Positions 46,600-61,324 of a DNA stretch of 61,324 nt are shown in pieces; position 1 is the stretch's first letter, and every line of letters starts with the position of its first letter. The position numbers and the translations under genes were made by a program. The DNA is from Sulfurimonas sp. GTDB lineage: Bacteria; Campylobacterota; Campylobacteria; Campylobacterales; Sulfurimonadaceae. The DNA lies in assembly GCF_026988655.1 (NCBI RefSeq), contig NZ_JALSKT010000065.1, forward strand, positions 1-61,324, in the 5' to 3' direction. The notes under the pieces are model-generated. The model was given only the letters and a program-made list of their open reading frames with translations, was not told the origin of the DNA and did no database searches.

Positions 46600-47880
46600 T
46601 TGGTAGAGACCCTCCTTAGAGTTTTACTAGAAAACCAATATCTCATTTTCTTTTTACTTTCTATGTTGGCTTTTTTATTTGTGCTATATTTATATATACA
46701 AGAAAAAAATAAAGCTAAAATCTTATCTACTGCGTTTAAGGAGTTAGATCAAAGATATGAAGAGTTAAAAGATGAGATGAGTGACTTAGAACTCAAACAC
46801 GCAGTGCTGAATACTCGCTACGAAGATGAACTCATAGCTTCAAATGAAAAACTGAGTGTTTTGCAAAATGCTAAAAATGAACTCTCTATAGAATTTAAAA
46901 ATTTAGCCAATAAGATATTTGAAGACAAATCTAAACAATTTAGTTCATCAAATAAAGAACAATTAGAATTACTACTGCAACCTTTTCGTGAACAAATCAC
47001 TACTTTTTCAAAAGAAGCACGCGAACAGTTTGAGTTTGAACTCAAAGAGAGACATCTACTAAAAGACGAACTATCACATCTGAAAAAAATGAATGAAACC
47101 TTAGCACAAGAAGCACTAAACCTTACCAATGCACTTAAAAATGAAAACAAAACTCAGGGAAATTGGGGAGAGCTGATTCTTGCAAATATACTTGAACAAT
47201 CAGGACTGCGTTTAGGTGTCGAGTACGAGTTACAAGCTTCACGACAATCAAATGAAGGTAAAACCTATAGACCTGATGTGATCATTCATATGCCACAACA
47301 AAGAGATATCATAGTTGATTCAAAAGTCTCTTTACGTGCATATGAAAAGTTTGTAAACGCAGTAGATGCAGAGGAAAAAAAGCAAGCACTTAAAGAGCAT
47401 ATAAGAAGTATTTCTACTCATGTTAAAGAGTTAAGTTCGAAAAAATATGAAAGACTCATAGGTGTGAACAGTTTAGATTTTGTTCTTCTTTTTATGCCTA
47501 TAGAAGGCGCTTTTTTATTAGCACTTGAAGAAGATGGCGAATTTTTCAAGCGTGCATATGAAAGTAATATTTTAGTTGTTTCACCTTCAACACTACTTGT
47601 TACACTCAGAACTATTGAGCATATATGGAGAACGCAAAGACAAGAAGAACATGCAAAAAAAATAGCATTAGAAGCAGAAGCTATGTATGATAAATTAGTT
47701 TTGTTTGTGGATGAAATGAAAAATATCGGTAGTAGTTTAGCTAAGGCACAAGACTCATACGACACAGCTATGAATAGGTTAAGCTCAGGCAGAGGAAATG
47801 TAATTAAAAGAGCACAAAAGATGAAAGAGTTGGGCTTAAAGCCAAAAAAAGAACTTTCTTTGACTTCTAGCGATGATTAG
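46600..47880 (+). CDS. rmuC: DNA recombination protein RmuC homologue
   Basis: A 426-residue protein with one N-terminal membrane segment (about 13-31), a long coiled coil (about 35-170) and the RmuC nuclease-like domain, with NWGELILANILEQSGL, RPDVIIHMPQQRDIIVDSKVSL and FVLLFMPIEGAFLLAL. It limits inversions and repeat recombination in E. coli. The start is TTG, with AAAAGG upstream; no nearby ATG keeps the membrane anchor intact. Its stop overlaps the convergent gene at 47877 by 4 bases. Confidence 0.92.
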   Translation: MVETLLRVLLENQYLIFFLLSMLAFLFVLYLYIQEKNKAKILSTAFKELDQRYEELKDEMSDLELKHAVLNTRYEDELIASNEKLSVLQNAKNELSIEFKNLANKIFEDKSKQFSSSNKEQLELLLQPFREQITTFSKEAREQFEFELKERHLLKDELSHLKKMNETLAQEALNLTNALKNENKTQGNWGELILANILEQSGLRLGVEYELQASRQSNEGKTYRPDVIIHMPQQRDIIVDSKVSLRAYEKFVNAVDAEEKKQALKEHIRSISTHVKELSSKKYERLIGVNSLDFVLLFMPIEGAFLLALEEDGEFFKRAYESNILVVSPSTLLVTLRTIEHIWRTQRQEEHAKKIALEAEAMYDKLVLFVDEMKNIGSSLAKAQDSYDTAMNRLSSGRGNVIKRAQKMKELGLKPKKELSLTSSDD

Positions 47881-48993: not shown

Positions 48994-49551
48994 TTATGGG
49001 TGTCTTACTTTAAGAGTAGAATTTAAACTCCATCCTATTGCAAGCATACAAACTATAACACCAAAAGCAGGCAGGATTTCATAAGCATTTAAAAGGTAAA
49101 CAAGCCAAAGCAAAATAGCGCCAAGTGGTGTAGGAACTCCAGTAAAGTAGTTTTCAACTTCTCCAGCATCTGCGTGAAGATTAAAATGTATCAAACGACG
49201 AAGACCTGAAATGACATAATAGATAGATACAACTGCCGCTACAAAAAGAGTAAAGCCATGAAGCTCTGGTGCATAAGAAGCTTGAAATATTAAAAATACA
49301 GGCACAAGAACAAAGCTTAAAAAGTCCGCAAAACTGTCAAGTTGAATTCCAAACTCATTTGATAGTTTATATTTTCTAGCAATTTTTCCATCAAAAATAT
49401 CAAAAGCACCACCAATCCATGCCAAAATTATTGCTAAAATAAAATTATTTTGTGTAATAAAGTAGGTAGCCATGAGTCCGGCAGTAATGTTCACAAATGT
49501 AAAAAGATTTGCGAGATTAAAGTGAGAAGAGGGTGTCCATAAAAATTTCAT
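48994..49551 (-). CDS. CDP-alcohol phosphatidyltransferase family protein
   Basis: A 185-residue membrane protein of phospholipid synthesis. The family motif is complete: DGKIAR near residues 53-58, then G at 67 and D at 71 and 75 (DGxxAR-x8-G-x3-D-x3-D). Short length and hydrophobic pattern fit phosphatidylserine synthase-like enzymes more than PgsA, but the alcohol cannot be read for certain. ATG 49551 is preferred to an in-frame TTG one codon upstream. The long palindrome at 49566-49622 sits 15 bases before the start. Confidence 0.85.
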   Translation of the reverse strand: MKFLWTPSSHFNLANLFTFVNITAGLMATYFITQNNFILAIILAWIGGAFDIFDGKIARKYKLSNEFGIQLDSFADFLSFVLVPVFLIFQASYAPELHGFTLFVAAVVSIYYVISGLRRLIHFNLHADAGEVENYFTGVPTPLGAILLWLVYLLNAYEILPAFGVIVCMLAIGWSLNSTLKVRHP

Positions 49552-49565
49552 CAATATGACCTTAT

Positions 49566-49622
49566 GGGCACCTCTAAAAACCCTAGCATATCTCAGATAT
49601 ACTAGGGTTTTTAGAGGTGCCC
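49566..49622. repeat. 57-base near-perfect palindrome
   Basis: Left arm 49566-49586 begins GGGCACCTCTAAAAACCC and is matched exactly over 21 bases by right arm 49602-49622, which begins CTAGGGTTTTTAGAGG and ends TGCCC. The 15-base centre is itself the palindrome ATATCTCAGATAT (49588-49600). The whole can fold into one hairpin with a single mismatch near the centre. On the minus strand it ends 14 bases before the ATG of the phosphotransferase gene. Confidence 0.85.
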
Positions 49623-49718
49623 TTATGTAAAATATATAAAATTATAGCAAAATCAGATTAAATAAAATCAGCTTCTTATTAATATTCATTATTGATATTA
49701 TTAAGGAGAGTATAAGTT

Positions 49719-49737
49719 GATATAGATTATCATTCAC
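49719..49737. promoter_or_regulatory. Candidate Fur box before the porin-feoA-feoB genes
   Basis: GATATAGATTATCATTCAC matches the 19-base Fur consensus at 14 positions, and similar ATT-ATTGATATTATT repeats lie just upstream at 49681-49702. It is placed 36 bases before the porin start at 49773. With feoAB downstream, iron control by Fur is a fair inference. Confidence 0.55.
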
Positions 49738-49772: not shown

Positions 49773-50931
49773 ATGAAGTTCGTTCTTGTATTGCTACTGT
49801 TTTGTAGTTCTATTACTTATGCAGTTGATGAGAGCAATAGAGAACTAGAACACTCTGTGAGAGATAGTATTGGGAAGGTGACACAGCCAGAACAAAAAGA
49901 TGTTTAAAAAAGGGAAAGTCACAGGTAATATAAGAGGTATATACTCAGTTTTTTCAAATGATGTACATTATTTAACAGGAGAGGGAGATAAGCATAATCC
50001 AGATCTTTCTAGCTCTCAAGGTGCTAATCATCAACTGAGTGAAGCTTATGTTAATTACAAAAATAAAGGATTAAACCTCCGCGTTGGTCGTCAAATAATT
50101 GATACTCCATTAGTTGATAGTGATGATATACGTATGACTCCTAATACCTTTGATGCCTATAGTGTAGTATATGAAAGGGATAAATTTTCATTTATAGCGG
50201 CACATGTAAATGCTTGGCAAGGCTATGATGCAGGTTTAGAAAATGGCTGGGTAAACACTGGTAAAGATGGTGTAAATTTTGGAGGTCTTAGTTATTCAAA
50301 CGCAGCTGTAGATGTAAGTGCTTGGTATTATAATATTTCAAATGCTTCTGCTTCAGATATCATAAAAGGTGCAGATCAAAATGGAAATAATAGCTTTTAT
50401 GCAGACATAAGTGGACATTTTGACGTATCAGATGAATTGTTTGTGCATGTTAACTTGCAGTATCTCAAGCAAAATGAGCTTGATGGTAGTAATGTAAAAG
50501 CAAATATTTATGGTAGTATGGCACAGGTTGTTTATGGTGATTTTAGTGTAGGCCTAGCTTATAACAAATCAATCAAGCAAAAAGGAAAACATAGTTTTAG
50601 TGGCTATGGTGGTGGTACCCTCTACACAAGTATGGATACCATGATACTAGATGAAATAACAGAAGATAGAGATGCTCAAGCTATAGTAATTAGTTTAAGA
50701 TACACTTTATACGATGTGAATTTTCTTTATGCTTATGGGAATTTTGATGGGAAAGCAAATAGCTTAAAAGTAAAAGAACACATTGTAGCTCAAAATATTG
50801 GTCTAGAATATACTACTCAAAATGAATTAACATTGGCTGTAGTGTATGTAATTCATGATAATAAAGAAGATTCAAAAAGTACATTTTATAATGACAATAA
50901 CTTTAGAATCTTAGCTTCATACAATTTTTAA
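49773..50931 (+). pseudogene. OprD-like outer-membrane porin gene split by a frameshift
   Basis: Two frames together read as one porin. Frame one (49773-49907) gives a signal peptide (MKFVLVLLLFCSSITYA) and 27 mature residues, then stops at TAA. The rest (from ATG 49900 to 50931, 343 residues) has no signal peptide but is a porin barrel with GRQIIDTPLVDSDD and a final aromatic residue in SYNF. Dropping one base at GTT-T-AAA (49905) would join them. The join lies next to AAAAAA, so a recent indel, phase variation or a sequence error are all possible. It is preceded by a Fur box and followed by feoAB. Confidence 0.7.
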
Positions 50932-50946
50932 AATAAAGAGTAAAAA

Positions 50947-51174
50947 ATGAAAAAATTATTAGATTGTAACAAAGGTGAAGAAGTCAAGGTTGTAAAACTT
51001 AATGCAGAGTATGATTTAAAACAACGCTTTATATCATTTGGCATTATGAAAAATGCAAAAATAAAAGTTTTAGAACAGGCACCTAGAAAAAAAACCATTG
51101 AGATTAAAGTAGGAAAGATGCGTATTGCTCTACGAGCAGAAGAGGCACAAATGATTGAGGTTGAAGAAGTATGA
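50947..51174 (+). CDS. feoA: Ferrous iron transport protein FeoA
   Basis: A 75-residue SH3-like protein that assists FeoB. It contains the usual LKQRFISFGIMKNAKIKVLE segment (cited as FeoA core) and ends LRAEEAQMIEVEEV. It overlaps feoB by 4 bases and follows the porin by 15 bases. Confidence 0.9.
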   Translation: MKKLLDCNKGEEVKVVKLNAEYDLKQRFISFGIMKNAKIKVLEQAPRKKTIEIKVGKMRIALRAEEAQMIEVEEV

Positions 51175-53312
51175 TAACAGAAAAAAAAGTTTGTCCAATT
51201 ACAGAAAATCATATCAAAGTTGCTTTAGTGGGGCAACCCAATGTTGGAAAAAGTATGCTGATAAATTCAGTTTCAAATGCACACTTGCATGTTGGAAATT
51301 TTTCTGGTGTTACGGTTGATAAAACAGAAGTTTTGTTTGACTATAAAGATTACCATTTTACGGTTGTCGATTTACCTGGAACGTATGCTTTTACTGAGTA
51401 TACTATAGAAGAGAGGGTAACACATAACTATCTTTGTGCTGAAGATTATGACATTATTATTAATGTCGTAGACTCTACAAACTTAGAGAAAAATCTGCAA
51501 CTGACAGCTGAACTTTTAACAATGAGTAAAAAAATTGTTATTGCTTTAAATATGAGTGATGAAGCACAAAAAGAGGGAATAGAACTAGATGCAGAGTATA
51601 TTTCTGAGCTTTTAAATGTTCCTTGTGTGAAAGTTTCTGCAGCTGAAAAAACGGGAATAGAAGAGTTGATAGATACTGTACTTGAAGTATACGAAAGACC
51701 TAAAAGAGATCCTAAACTTGTTTTTAGTGAAGCGGTTGAGGAAGAGATAACAAATATTGTTTCTTATCTTGAAAAACACAAATATAAAGCAGTTAATAGT
51801 TATAGAAACATAGCGATTAATCTACTCAAAGAAAATAAAAAAACATATGCAAAACTCCATGATGATCCAATATGGATAGAGTTACAGCCAATTTTAATAG
51901 AAGCCTCCAAACATATTGAAATTCATCATGATACGGATGATATCAAAGAAGCATTTGCAGAAGAGTATGCTTCTTTTAATAGAGGTATAGTAACAGAAGT
52001 TGTGAAGAAAAAAACAGAGCTAAAAGAGATTAAAACGATGACTGAAAAGATAGATAATATCTTAATTCATCCCATTTTTGGTATTCCTATTTTCTTGTTT
52101 TTAATGTGGGGATTATTTCAGCTTACTTTTGTTCTTGGTGCCGTTCCTATGGACTGGATCGATGCATTTTTTGGATGGATGGGTGATGCTGTTGGTGCCA
52201 CTATAACTAATGATGAAGTCCGTTCCTTAGTTGTAGATGGACTTATCTCTGGGGTTGGTGCTGTTATCCTTTTTGTTCCAAATATCATTATCCTTTTTAT
52301 AGGGATTGCACTTTTAGAGAGTACTGGTTATATGTCACGAGTTGCTTTTTTACTTGATGGATTTTTTCATAAATTTGGCTTGCATGGACAGAGCTTTATC
52401 CCCCTTGTAACTGGTTTTGGATGTTCTATTCCTGCGTATATGAGTGCGAGAATATTAAAAAATGACAGAGATAGACTTTTAACTCTCTTTATTATCAGTT
52501 TTATGTCTTGTGGGGCAAGACTTCCAGTCTATGTTTTGTTTGCAGGCGCATTTTTTAGTGAGTCAATCGCTGGAAATGTACTTTTTATTATCTATATCTC
52601 AGGCGCAGTTTTGGGACTAATTGCAGCAAAAATTTTGAAGATGACTGCGTTTAAAGGGGCGGATGAACCTTTTGTTATGGAGATGCCGAAGTATCGTCTT
52701 CCTTCTGTGAAGCTTGTATGGCATACGGTACTTTCTAAAACATTAATGTATTTGAAAAAAGCGGGTACATTTATCGCTGGAGCAACGATTCTTATCTGGT
52801 TTTTAAGTAATTATCCTCACAACGTAGAGCTTGAAAAAGAGTATGCACAAAAGATAGAAAAAGCACAAACAGATAAGGAAAAAATTGTTTTACAAAATAA
52901 ACTTGCAGGGATGAATCTTGAAGATAGTTACTTAGGGAGAATTGGACAATTTTCAGAACCTGTATTTGAGCCGCTTGGGCTTGATTGGAAAATGGCAGTG
53001 GCACTTGAAGCAGGTATTGCAGCTAAAGAGGTCATAGTTTCTACTTTAGGTGTACTCTATTCACTAGGGGAAAGTGTAGATGAATCAAATACTTCACTCA
53101 GAGATGCCATAAGTAAAAATATCTCTTTTGCTTCAGCAGTTGCATTTATTATTATCATTATTGTCTATTTACCTTGTTTTGCTGCCTCTATAGTTTTTAC
53201 ACGTGAAGCAGGAGGAATAAAATATTTCTTTTATCTTTTAGCTTTTACATCACTAGCTGCATATGGTTTGGCATTTTTGGGCTATCATCTTGCATTAGCC
53301 TTTAGTTATTAA
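51171..53312 (+). CDS. feoB: Ferrous iron transporter FeoB
   Basis: A 713-residue protein with an N-terminal G domain (GQPNVGKSM at about 22-30, VDLPGTYAF, NVVDSTNLEKN) and a membrane part with the two Gate motifs, including FGCSIPAYMSAR and AGIAAKEVIVSTLG. It imports Fe2+ across the inner membrane. It is overlapped by feoA, and the two probably share the Fur-controlled promoter with the porin. Confidence 0.95.
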   Translation: MITEKKVCPITENHIKVALVGQPNVGKSMLINSVSNAHLHVGNFSGVTVDKTEVLFDYKDYHFTVVDLPGTYAFTEYTIEERVTHNYLCAEDYDIIINVVDSTNLEKNLQLTAELLTMSKKIVIALNMSDEAQKEGIELDAEYISELLNVPCVKVSAAEKTGIEELIDTVLEVYERPKRDPKLVFSEAVEEEITNIVSYLEKHKYKAVNSYRNIAINLLKENKKTYAKLHDDPIWIELQPILIEASKHIEIHHDTDDIKEAFAEEYASFNRGIVTEVVKKKTELKEIKTMTEKIDNILIHPIFGIPIFLFLMWGLFQLTFVLGAVPMDWIDAFFGWMGDAVGATITNDEVRSLVVDGLISGVGAVILFVPNIIILFIGIALLESTGYMSRVAFLLDGFFHKFGLHGQSFIPLVTGFGCSIPAYMSARILKNDRDRLLTLFIISFMSCGARLPVYVLFAGAFFSESIAGNVLFIIYISGAVLGLIAAKILKMTAFKGADEPFVMEMPKYRLPSVKLVWHTVLSKTLMYLKKAGTFIAGATILIWFLSNYPHNVELEKEYAQKIEKAQTDKEKIVLQNKLAGMNLEDSYLGRIGQFSEPVFEPLGLDWKMAVALEAGIAAKEVIVSTLGVLYSLGESVDESNTSLRDAISKNISFASAVAFIIIIIVYLPCFAASIVFTREAGGIKYFFYLLAFTSLAAYGLAFLGYHLALAFSY

Positions 53313-60800: not shown

Positions 60801-61324
60801 ATGAAATTAACAAAAATGAGTTTAGTGGCAGCATTACTAATAGGTTCAAGCGCTTTTGCACTTGATAATGTAAAAATGAGTGGTGATGCTAATTTAGTTT
60901 ATGAAACAATGGATGGTGCGTCGGGATATGATGCTATCGCGGGTAAAGACGGTGAACTTTTTTCAAAAGATTCAAGTGCTGCTGATATTGCTGTAAACTT
61001 AAATGTTACAGCAGATGTACTAAAAAATGATTTAGTATCTATCAGTGTTGGTGCTGGCTATACAGTGCTTACTACTTTAGGTTTAGAAAATAACTTTGTA
61101 AGTAATGTATGGGGTGGTGCGCATACTGCTACTACACCTACTGGTGGACAATATGGTTCTGCTTTAGGTGGAGCACAAGTAAATACTGCATCATGGTTCA
61201 ATGAAGCGTGGGTAGCTGCAACTTCAGGAAAAACAACTGCAAAACTTGGTCGTATGGTTCTTGATACTCCTCTTGCATTTACTGAGACATGGACAATCGA
61301 GCAAAATACTTTTGATGCGGCAGT
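60801..61324 (+). CDS. OprD-like outer-membrane porin (partial, 3' end outside window)
   Basis: The first 174 residues of a porin. It starts with a clear signal peptide, MKLTKMSLVAALLIGSSAFA, followed by a barrel-like sequence. The segment GRMVLDTPLAFTETW...NTFDA parallels GRQIIDTPLVDSDD...NTFDA in the frameshifted porin at 49773, so the two belong to one family. AAGGAG precedes the ATG. The frame is open at the window end. Confidence 0.88.
   Translation, partial: MKLTKMSLVAALLIGSSAFALDNVKMSGDANLVYETMDGASGYDAIAGKDGELFSKDSSAADIAVNLNVTADVLKNDLVSISVGAGYTVLTTLGLENNFVSNVWGGAHTATTPTGGQYGSALGGAQVNTASWFNEAWVAATSGKTTAKLGRMVLDTPLAFTETWTIEQNTFDAA

Follow-up and report, generated by a model that had tools for sequence, protein, structure and literature searches.

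A split OprD-family porin gene ahead of feoAB in Sulfurimonas is likely a recently inactivated gene with two deletions

The window, that is, the whole 61,324-nt stretch of Sulfurimonas DNA analyzed here (contig C65 of a 1.97 Mb host genome in 87 contigs, 96% complete), carries a porin gene whose signal peptide and barrel lie in different reading frames. What separated the two, and does the gene still make a channel? A first-pass annotation proposed a one-base frameshift. The layout of the locus is as follows.

48994-49554, minus strand: divergent neighbor, a pssA-like CDP-alcohol phosphatidyltransferase gene, which we take to be pssA (Pfam PF01066, 3.6e-21; matched in 93 of 100 genus genomes).
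49719-49737, plus strand: Fur-box-like site GATATAGATTATCATTCAC, whose first base lies 54 nt upstream of the signal-peptide ATG, matching 14 of 19 consensus positions (p=0.024).
49773-49907, plus strand: signal-peptide ORF, 44 aa, ending at TAA and aligning with the N-termini of relatives.
49900-50931, plus strand: barrel ORF of an OprD-family porin, 343 aa, with no in-frame signal peptide and 16 model strands.
50947-51174, plus strand: feoA (Pfam FeoA, 1.3e-18).
51171-53312, plus strand: presumably feoB, named from its sequence and position (matched in 96 of 100 genus genomes).

We consider it likely that the split gene is a recently inactivated 18-stranded OprD-family porin, damaged by two deletions, and that it is the first gene of a porin-feoA-feoB operon probably under Fur control. 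The evidence is analyzed below, beginning with the two frames.

The signal-peptide ORF starts at 49773 and stops at the TAA at 49905-49907. The barrel ORF runs in the +1 frame relative to it and has no internal stop. Thus, the proposed difference in frame is real. The ORFs overlap in ATGTTTAA, where the barrel ATG starts 5 nt ahead of the stop codon of the first ORF. The barrel frame spans only 349 codons from stop to stop and therefore holds no second signal peptide. Complete relatives start signal-peptide-like in frame, as judged by eye rather than with a predictor and barring lesioned copies and a few unplaced starts; among them, no homologue turned up that is naturally without the first 44 residues. 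Downstream, 15 nt separate the barrel stop from feoA, and the porin lies directly ahead of feoA-feoB. A second porin-like ORF leaves the window end (61140-61324) and seems to be continued at G000:C66:1-330, which overlaps it in sequence.

The lesions were defined by comparison with the nearest intact copy, from the Sulfurimonas autotrophica MAG SZUA-1449 (G061, locus L190), which is 62% identical; the best relatives found share 62% identity or less with the window porin. Two gaps are evident in the alignments, about 55 nt apart.

49893-49905, plus strand: junction of deletion 1, which shifts the frame; 29 nt absent relative to G061 (nucleotide alignment).
49945-49962, plus strand: junction of deletion 2, in frame; about 105 nt absent (alignment and structure models).

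Deletion 1 has its breakpoint between CAAAAAG and ATGTTT. The frame changes between signal peptide and barrel because 29 nt are lost and not because of tract length. The disruption does sit at the signal-peptide end of the porin, where the frames part, but it is no one-base frameshift. The junction falls at a short A-rich repeat, which suggests that replication slippage may have caused this deletion. Deletion 2 removes 35 residues (105 nt) relative to G061, after barrel residue 18. At that place 33–42 residues are present in 47 of 47 complete relatives in alignment A3, and the window has none. A3 consists of the window and 47 relatives chosen as complete frames from 61 Sulfurimonas-type loci (L190-L250); alignments A2 and A3 omit the other 14 of the 61, which are cut, broken, near-duplicate or of unresolved start, and the distant matches L251-L266 were unused. 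The barrel had been called otherwise intact over 343 residues. This holds for its length and for the absence of internal stops but not for its content, as 35 residues are missing in frame. The complete relatives are mostly about 390–450 aa long, are read in a single frame and have extra residues at both gap sites. A search for the missing hairpin elsewhere in the host genome gave only two weak matches, both within open reading frames of other loci (486 and 507 aa).

The family assignment rests on profiles and on models. The window barrel scores 28.9 bits against Pfam OprD (cut-off 25) and also passes BBP2 (27 bits, cut-off 26.2), with Alginate_exp among its matches. The intact relative scores 33.2 bits against OprD, the sole family matched, and OprB is absent from the matches of both. 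In the AlphaFold2 model the intact relative has 18 strands (pLDDT 89.5), and the solved structures that match it best by Foldseek are Occ/OprD porins. By alignment, deletion 2 takes away strand 2 of this fold together with the last part of strand 1 and most of strand 3. The window barrel is modeled with 16 strands (pLDDT 87.8; block means of 38–69 over the first 50 residues), and its closed form may be flattered by the alignment behind the model, as the other 47 rows are full-length relatives. Thus, the predicted folds place the porin lineage in the OprD family, the window copy being a damaged member with 16 rather than 18 strands.

The proposed course of inactivation is as follows. The loss of about 29 nt would put signal peptide and barrel out of frame with each other, and the loss of about 105 nt would take out two strands in frame. 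What would remain is an orphan signal peptide and a barrel that lacks one; the latter, if translated from the overlapping ATG through re-initiation, would remain cytoplasmic. The window porin thus probably no longer makes a working channel. The downstream feoAB would stay open, and both frames are indeed open in the sequence. As to timing, the window barrel departs from 3 of 45 near-invariant columns (7%; the mean of the others is 4%), ranking 10 of 48 rows, and so the loss looks recent, one of the possibilities raised at first pass. The surroundings are in good order: in a comparison with the closed relative G011, each of 11 flanking genes (150 aa or longer) gives one continuous match at 66–96% identity; a further match, on the strand opposite to ORF 46600-47880, was set aside. 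In this comparison the porin reaches only 44% identity and therefore diverges far more than its neighbors.

Is this decay peculiar to the window? Porin relatives were sought in 100 genus genomes at E<=1e-30, which gave 77 matches in 72 genomes; three of the 77 contain internal stops (G033, G096 and G031, the last a one-contig genome). Inspection covered 75 of the 77 matches and the window (G022:C116 was left out). Contig ends truncate nine of these 75, and among the remaining 66 a stop lies inside four: G033, G031, G096 and G067. The G067 copy (G067:C135, L119) has its stop right after the signal peptide and, relative to G117, a 516-nt in-frame internal deletion that runs between mutually similar stretches. 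The fetched stretch includes feoA for 37 of the 66 uncut copies, all four stop-bearing ones among them. Two further cases are weak: G084 has no ATG, GTG or TTG at the expected start, and G026 has a shortened barrel with an altered C-terminus. The N-terminus of the G020 porin consists of masked bases. The differing ends or lengths in G089, G028, G064, G081, G060, G091, G121 and G067:C154 were taken as divergence rather than lesions.

Controls, with totals summed from per-genome match columns, show few such stops: none in 89 matches (E<=1e-60) of an OprD-family control porin (G000:C42), none in 95 matches of PssA and one in 105 matches of FeoB. Compared with the control porin, the porin family shows a modest excess of stops, 4 of 66 versus 0 of 84 (Fisher p=0.036, window left out), under different E-value limits, 1e-30 for the porin family and 1e-60 for the control; the 84 are the 89 minus five rows with open frames below 450 aa, two of which plainly start at the first bases of a contig. 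Adding the two weak cases gives 6 of 66 versus 0 of 84 (p=0.006), with the control loci screened for internal stops alone and not for start codons or frameshifts. In a quick tree with SH-aLRT support only, the broken copies hold separate places, each nearest a different row; G067 and G033 share a clade of four rows, but within it each sits next to an intact copy. At the level of sequence, then, the lesions recur. Because several relatives broke the porin in other ways, it appears dispensable, perhaps costly at times, for example if phage or toxic solutes could enter the cell through it. A search for literature tying porins as phage receptors to recurrent loss gave no match.

The well-conserved remainder of the window barrel also fits an assembly error. 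That is, the organism may have an intact gene from which the assembly dropped two short stretches, e.g., by collapsing strain variants. The 87 contigs of the host genome and the short A-rich repeat at the junction of deletion 1 are in keeping with this, and most of the named relatives are themselves metagenome assemblies. But such an error would have had to strike twice about 55 nt apart and yet leave 11 flanking genes unbroken, and the same family is lesioned in other species, including the one-contig G031. We regard an artefact as unlikely.

The porin is also variable in its presence. Match coordinates give 79 pssA-feoB pairs on one contig (G076 is counted twice). The gap between the two genes is 319–519 nt in 27 of them, with room for feoA only; it is porin-sized in another 27, window included, longer in 23, and anomalous in two, namely G067, with its decayed porin, and G027, with a mobile-looking repeat and no porin match in its pssA-feoA gap. 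G020, G022 and G023 have a porin relative elsewhere, though their pssA-feoB gaps have no room for one. Six of the porin-sized gaps, those of G085, G030, G114, G016, G122 and G095, carry a different porin type, 27–28% identical to the panel. Several of the other-type porins in the pssA-feoA slot (L131, L132, L135, L136, L139, L140) start like MIDMIYLA from the first ATG. In L150 (538 aa) and L153 (429 aa from the first ATG), an ORF that looks by eye like a chemoreceptor lies between pssA and the porin; other genomes with pssA-feoB gaps near 3.4 kb may share it. To summarize, an OprD-type porin stands ahead of feoAB in many Sulfurimonas, but in others that place has a damaged copy or none. Should reads confirm the pattern, these would be natural cases of gain and loss in which to ask about the cargo of the feo porin and the selection against it.

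A more ambitious order of events can be imagined, in which the hairpin was lost first, turning an 18-stranded ancestor into a working 16-stranded porin, and the break in frame followed, as selection favored losing this surface channel again and again across Sulfurimonas. We consider this order unlikely. If true, the working 16-stranded intermediate would be one clean natural strand deletion; on such deletions, the relevant passage of a survey of outer-membrane barrels states "we find no clear cases" (PMC6340704). Such gene decay is commonplace in itself; of mild interest are that it recurs and that two strands were removed so cleanly.

Could the ORF pair instead be retained for the sake of its neighbors? 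As a putative translated leader, it would let ribosomes that end at the TAA re-initiate at the overlapping ATG, carrying translation up to feoA and sparing feoAB from polarity. The spacing is suitable, with the ATG 5 nt before the first stop codon and the barrel ORF ending 15 nt ahead of feoA. The 27 of 79 linked pssA-feoB pairs with no room for a porin indicate, in turn, that feoAB need no such leader, and we judge this role very unlikely. Phase variation by slippage at the A tract, the switch proposed at first pass for the A6 run, has A5 and A6 runs at the junction in its favor, but we give it hardly any credence: the 29-nt loss explains the frames and tract length does not, slippage cannot restore the lost stretch, and the in-frame loss of the hairpin would be left unexplained. 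Programmed +1 frameshifting at GTT-TAA, fusing both frames into a working shortened porin, would suit the +1 offset and the stop at the junction, but is just as implausible given that complete relatives are a single frame with extra residues here. Thus, what had been described as a phase-variable one-base frameshift is better described as a two-deletion pseudogene.

The placing of the porin at an iron locus, after a Fur-like site and before feoAB, stands: the 14-of-19 site precedes a Pfam OprD match, with FeoA and FeoB next. The p-values for the site come from shuffling the mononucleotides of the 160 nt in question. The porins of G061 and G067 are preceded by the same core, and the match is weak in G061, the nearest relative (p=0.09). 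A Fur-like match at p<=0.05 is found in 27 of 33 feo-locus porins, window included, and in 13 of 22 family members away from feoA; therefore, the site tracks the porin family as a whole rather than the feo position alone. Between 49480 and 51200, promoter-like sites show no excess (10 versus a shuffle mean of 9.2), and a search for terminator-like sites gave none, the interval between porin and feoA included. Fur control and a single porin-feoA-feoB transcript are likely, and an intact porin may have passed ferrous iron.

Between pssA and the Fur-like site, outside the porin, lies one more element.

49562-49626, no strand assigned: 57-bp palindrome (49566-49622) made of two fused terminal inverted repeats, with TTAT on both sides (ends by eye).

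By its sequence, this is a remnant of a mobile-looking repeat of ~275 bp that has ~36-bp terminal inverted repeats and is matched in 34 of 100 genus genomes. Copies lie at G000:C44:21367-21641, C61:36639-36914, C42:8741-9018 and C74:62864-63132; the flanks are 4-bp AT-rich duplications, by eye TTAT, TTAA, TTTA and TAAA. A near full-length copy sits in the G027 pssA-feoA gap (G027:C169:1211-1483).

In the literature searched, no published description of a Sulfurimonas feo-locus porin or of its repeated loss was found. A porin ahead of feoAB does have a published precedent. In the feoPABC operon of Acidithiobacillus ferrooxidans, a Fur box is followed by the gene for the porin FeoP and then directly by feoA-feoB; FeoP, called an OprB-family porin, is proposed to give Fe(II) a route into the periplasm (PMC2621215, PMC2631029). 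The window porin resembles FeoP in standing directly ahead of feoA-feoB, and its Fur-like site may correspond to the Fur box of that operon. It differs in scoring as an OprD-family member, in coming from Campylobacterota and in being broken. The predicted 18-stranded fold of the intact relative is like those of OccAB4 (Foldseek E 2e-19), OpdK/OccK1 (3.5e-19) and the Campylobacter jejuni MOMP (3e-17, rank 25), at 13–17% identity, whereas the window copy is predicted with 16 strands. In Pseudomonas aeruginosa isolates, oprD is repeatedly inactivated by stops, frameshifts and deletions, the known selecting agents being carbapenems. Like oprD, the porin of the Sulfurimonas feo locus is an OprD-family gene that has been inactivated repeatedly.
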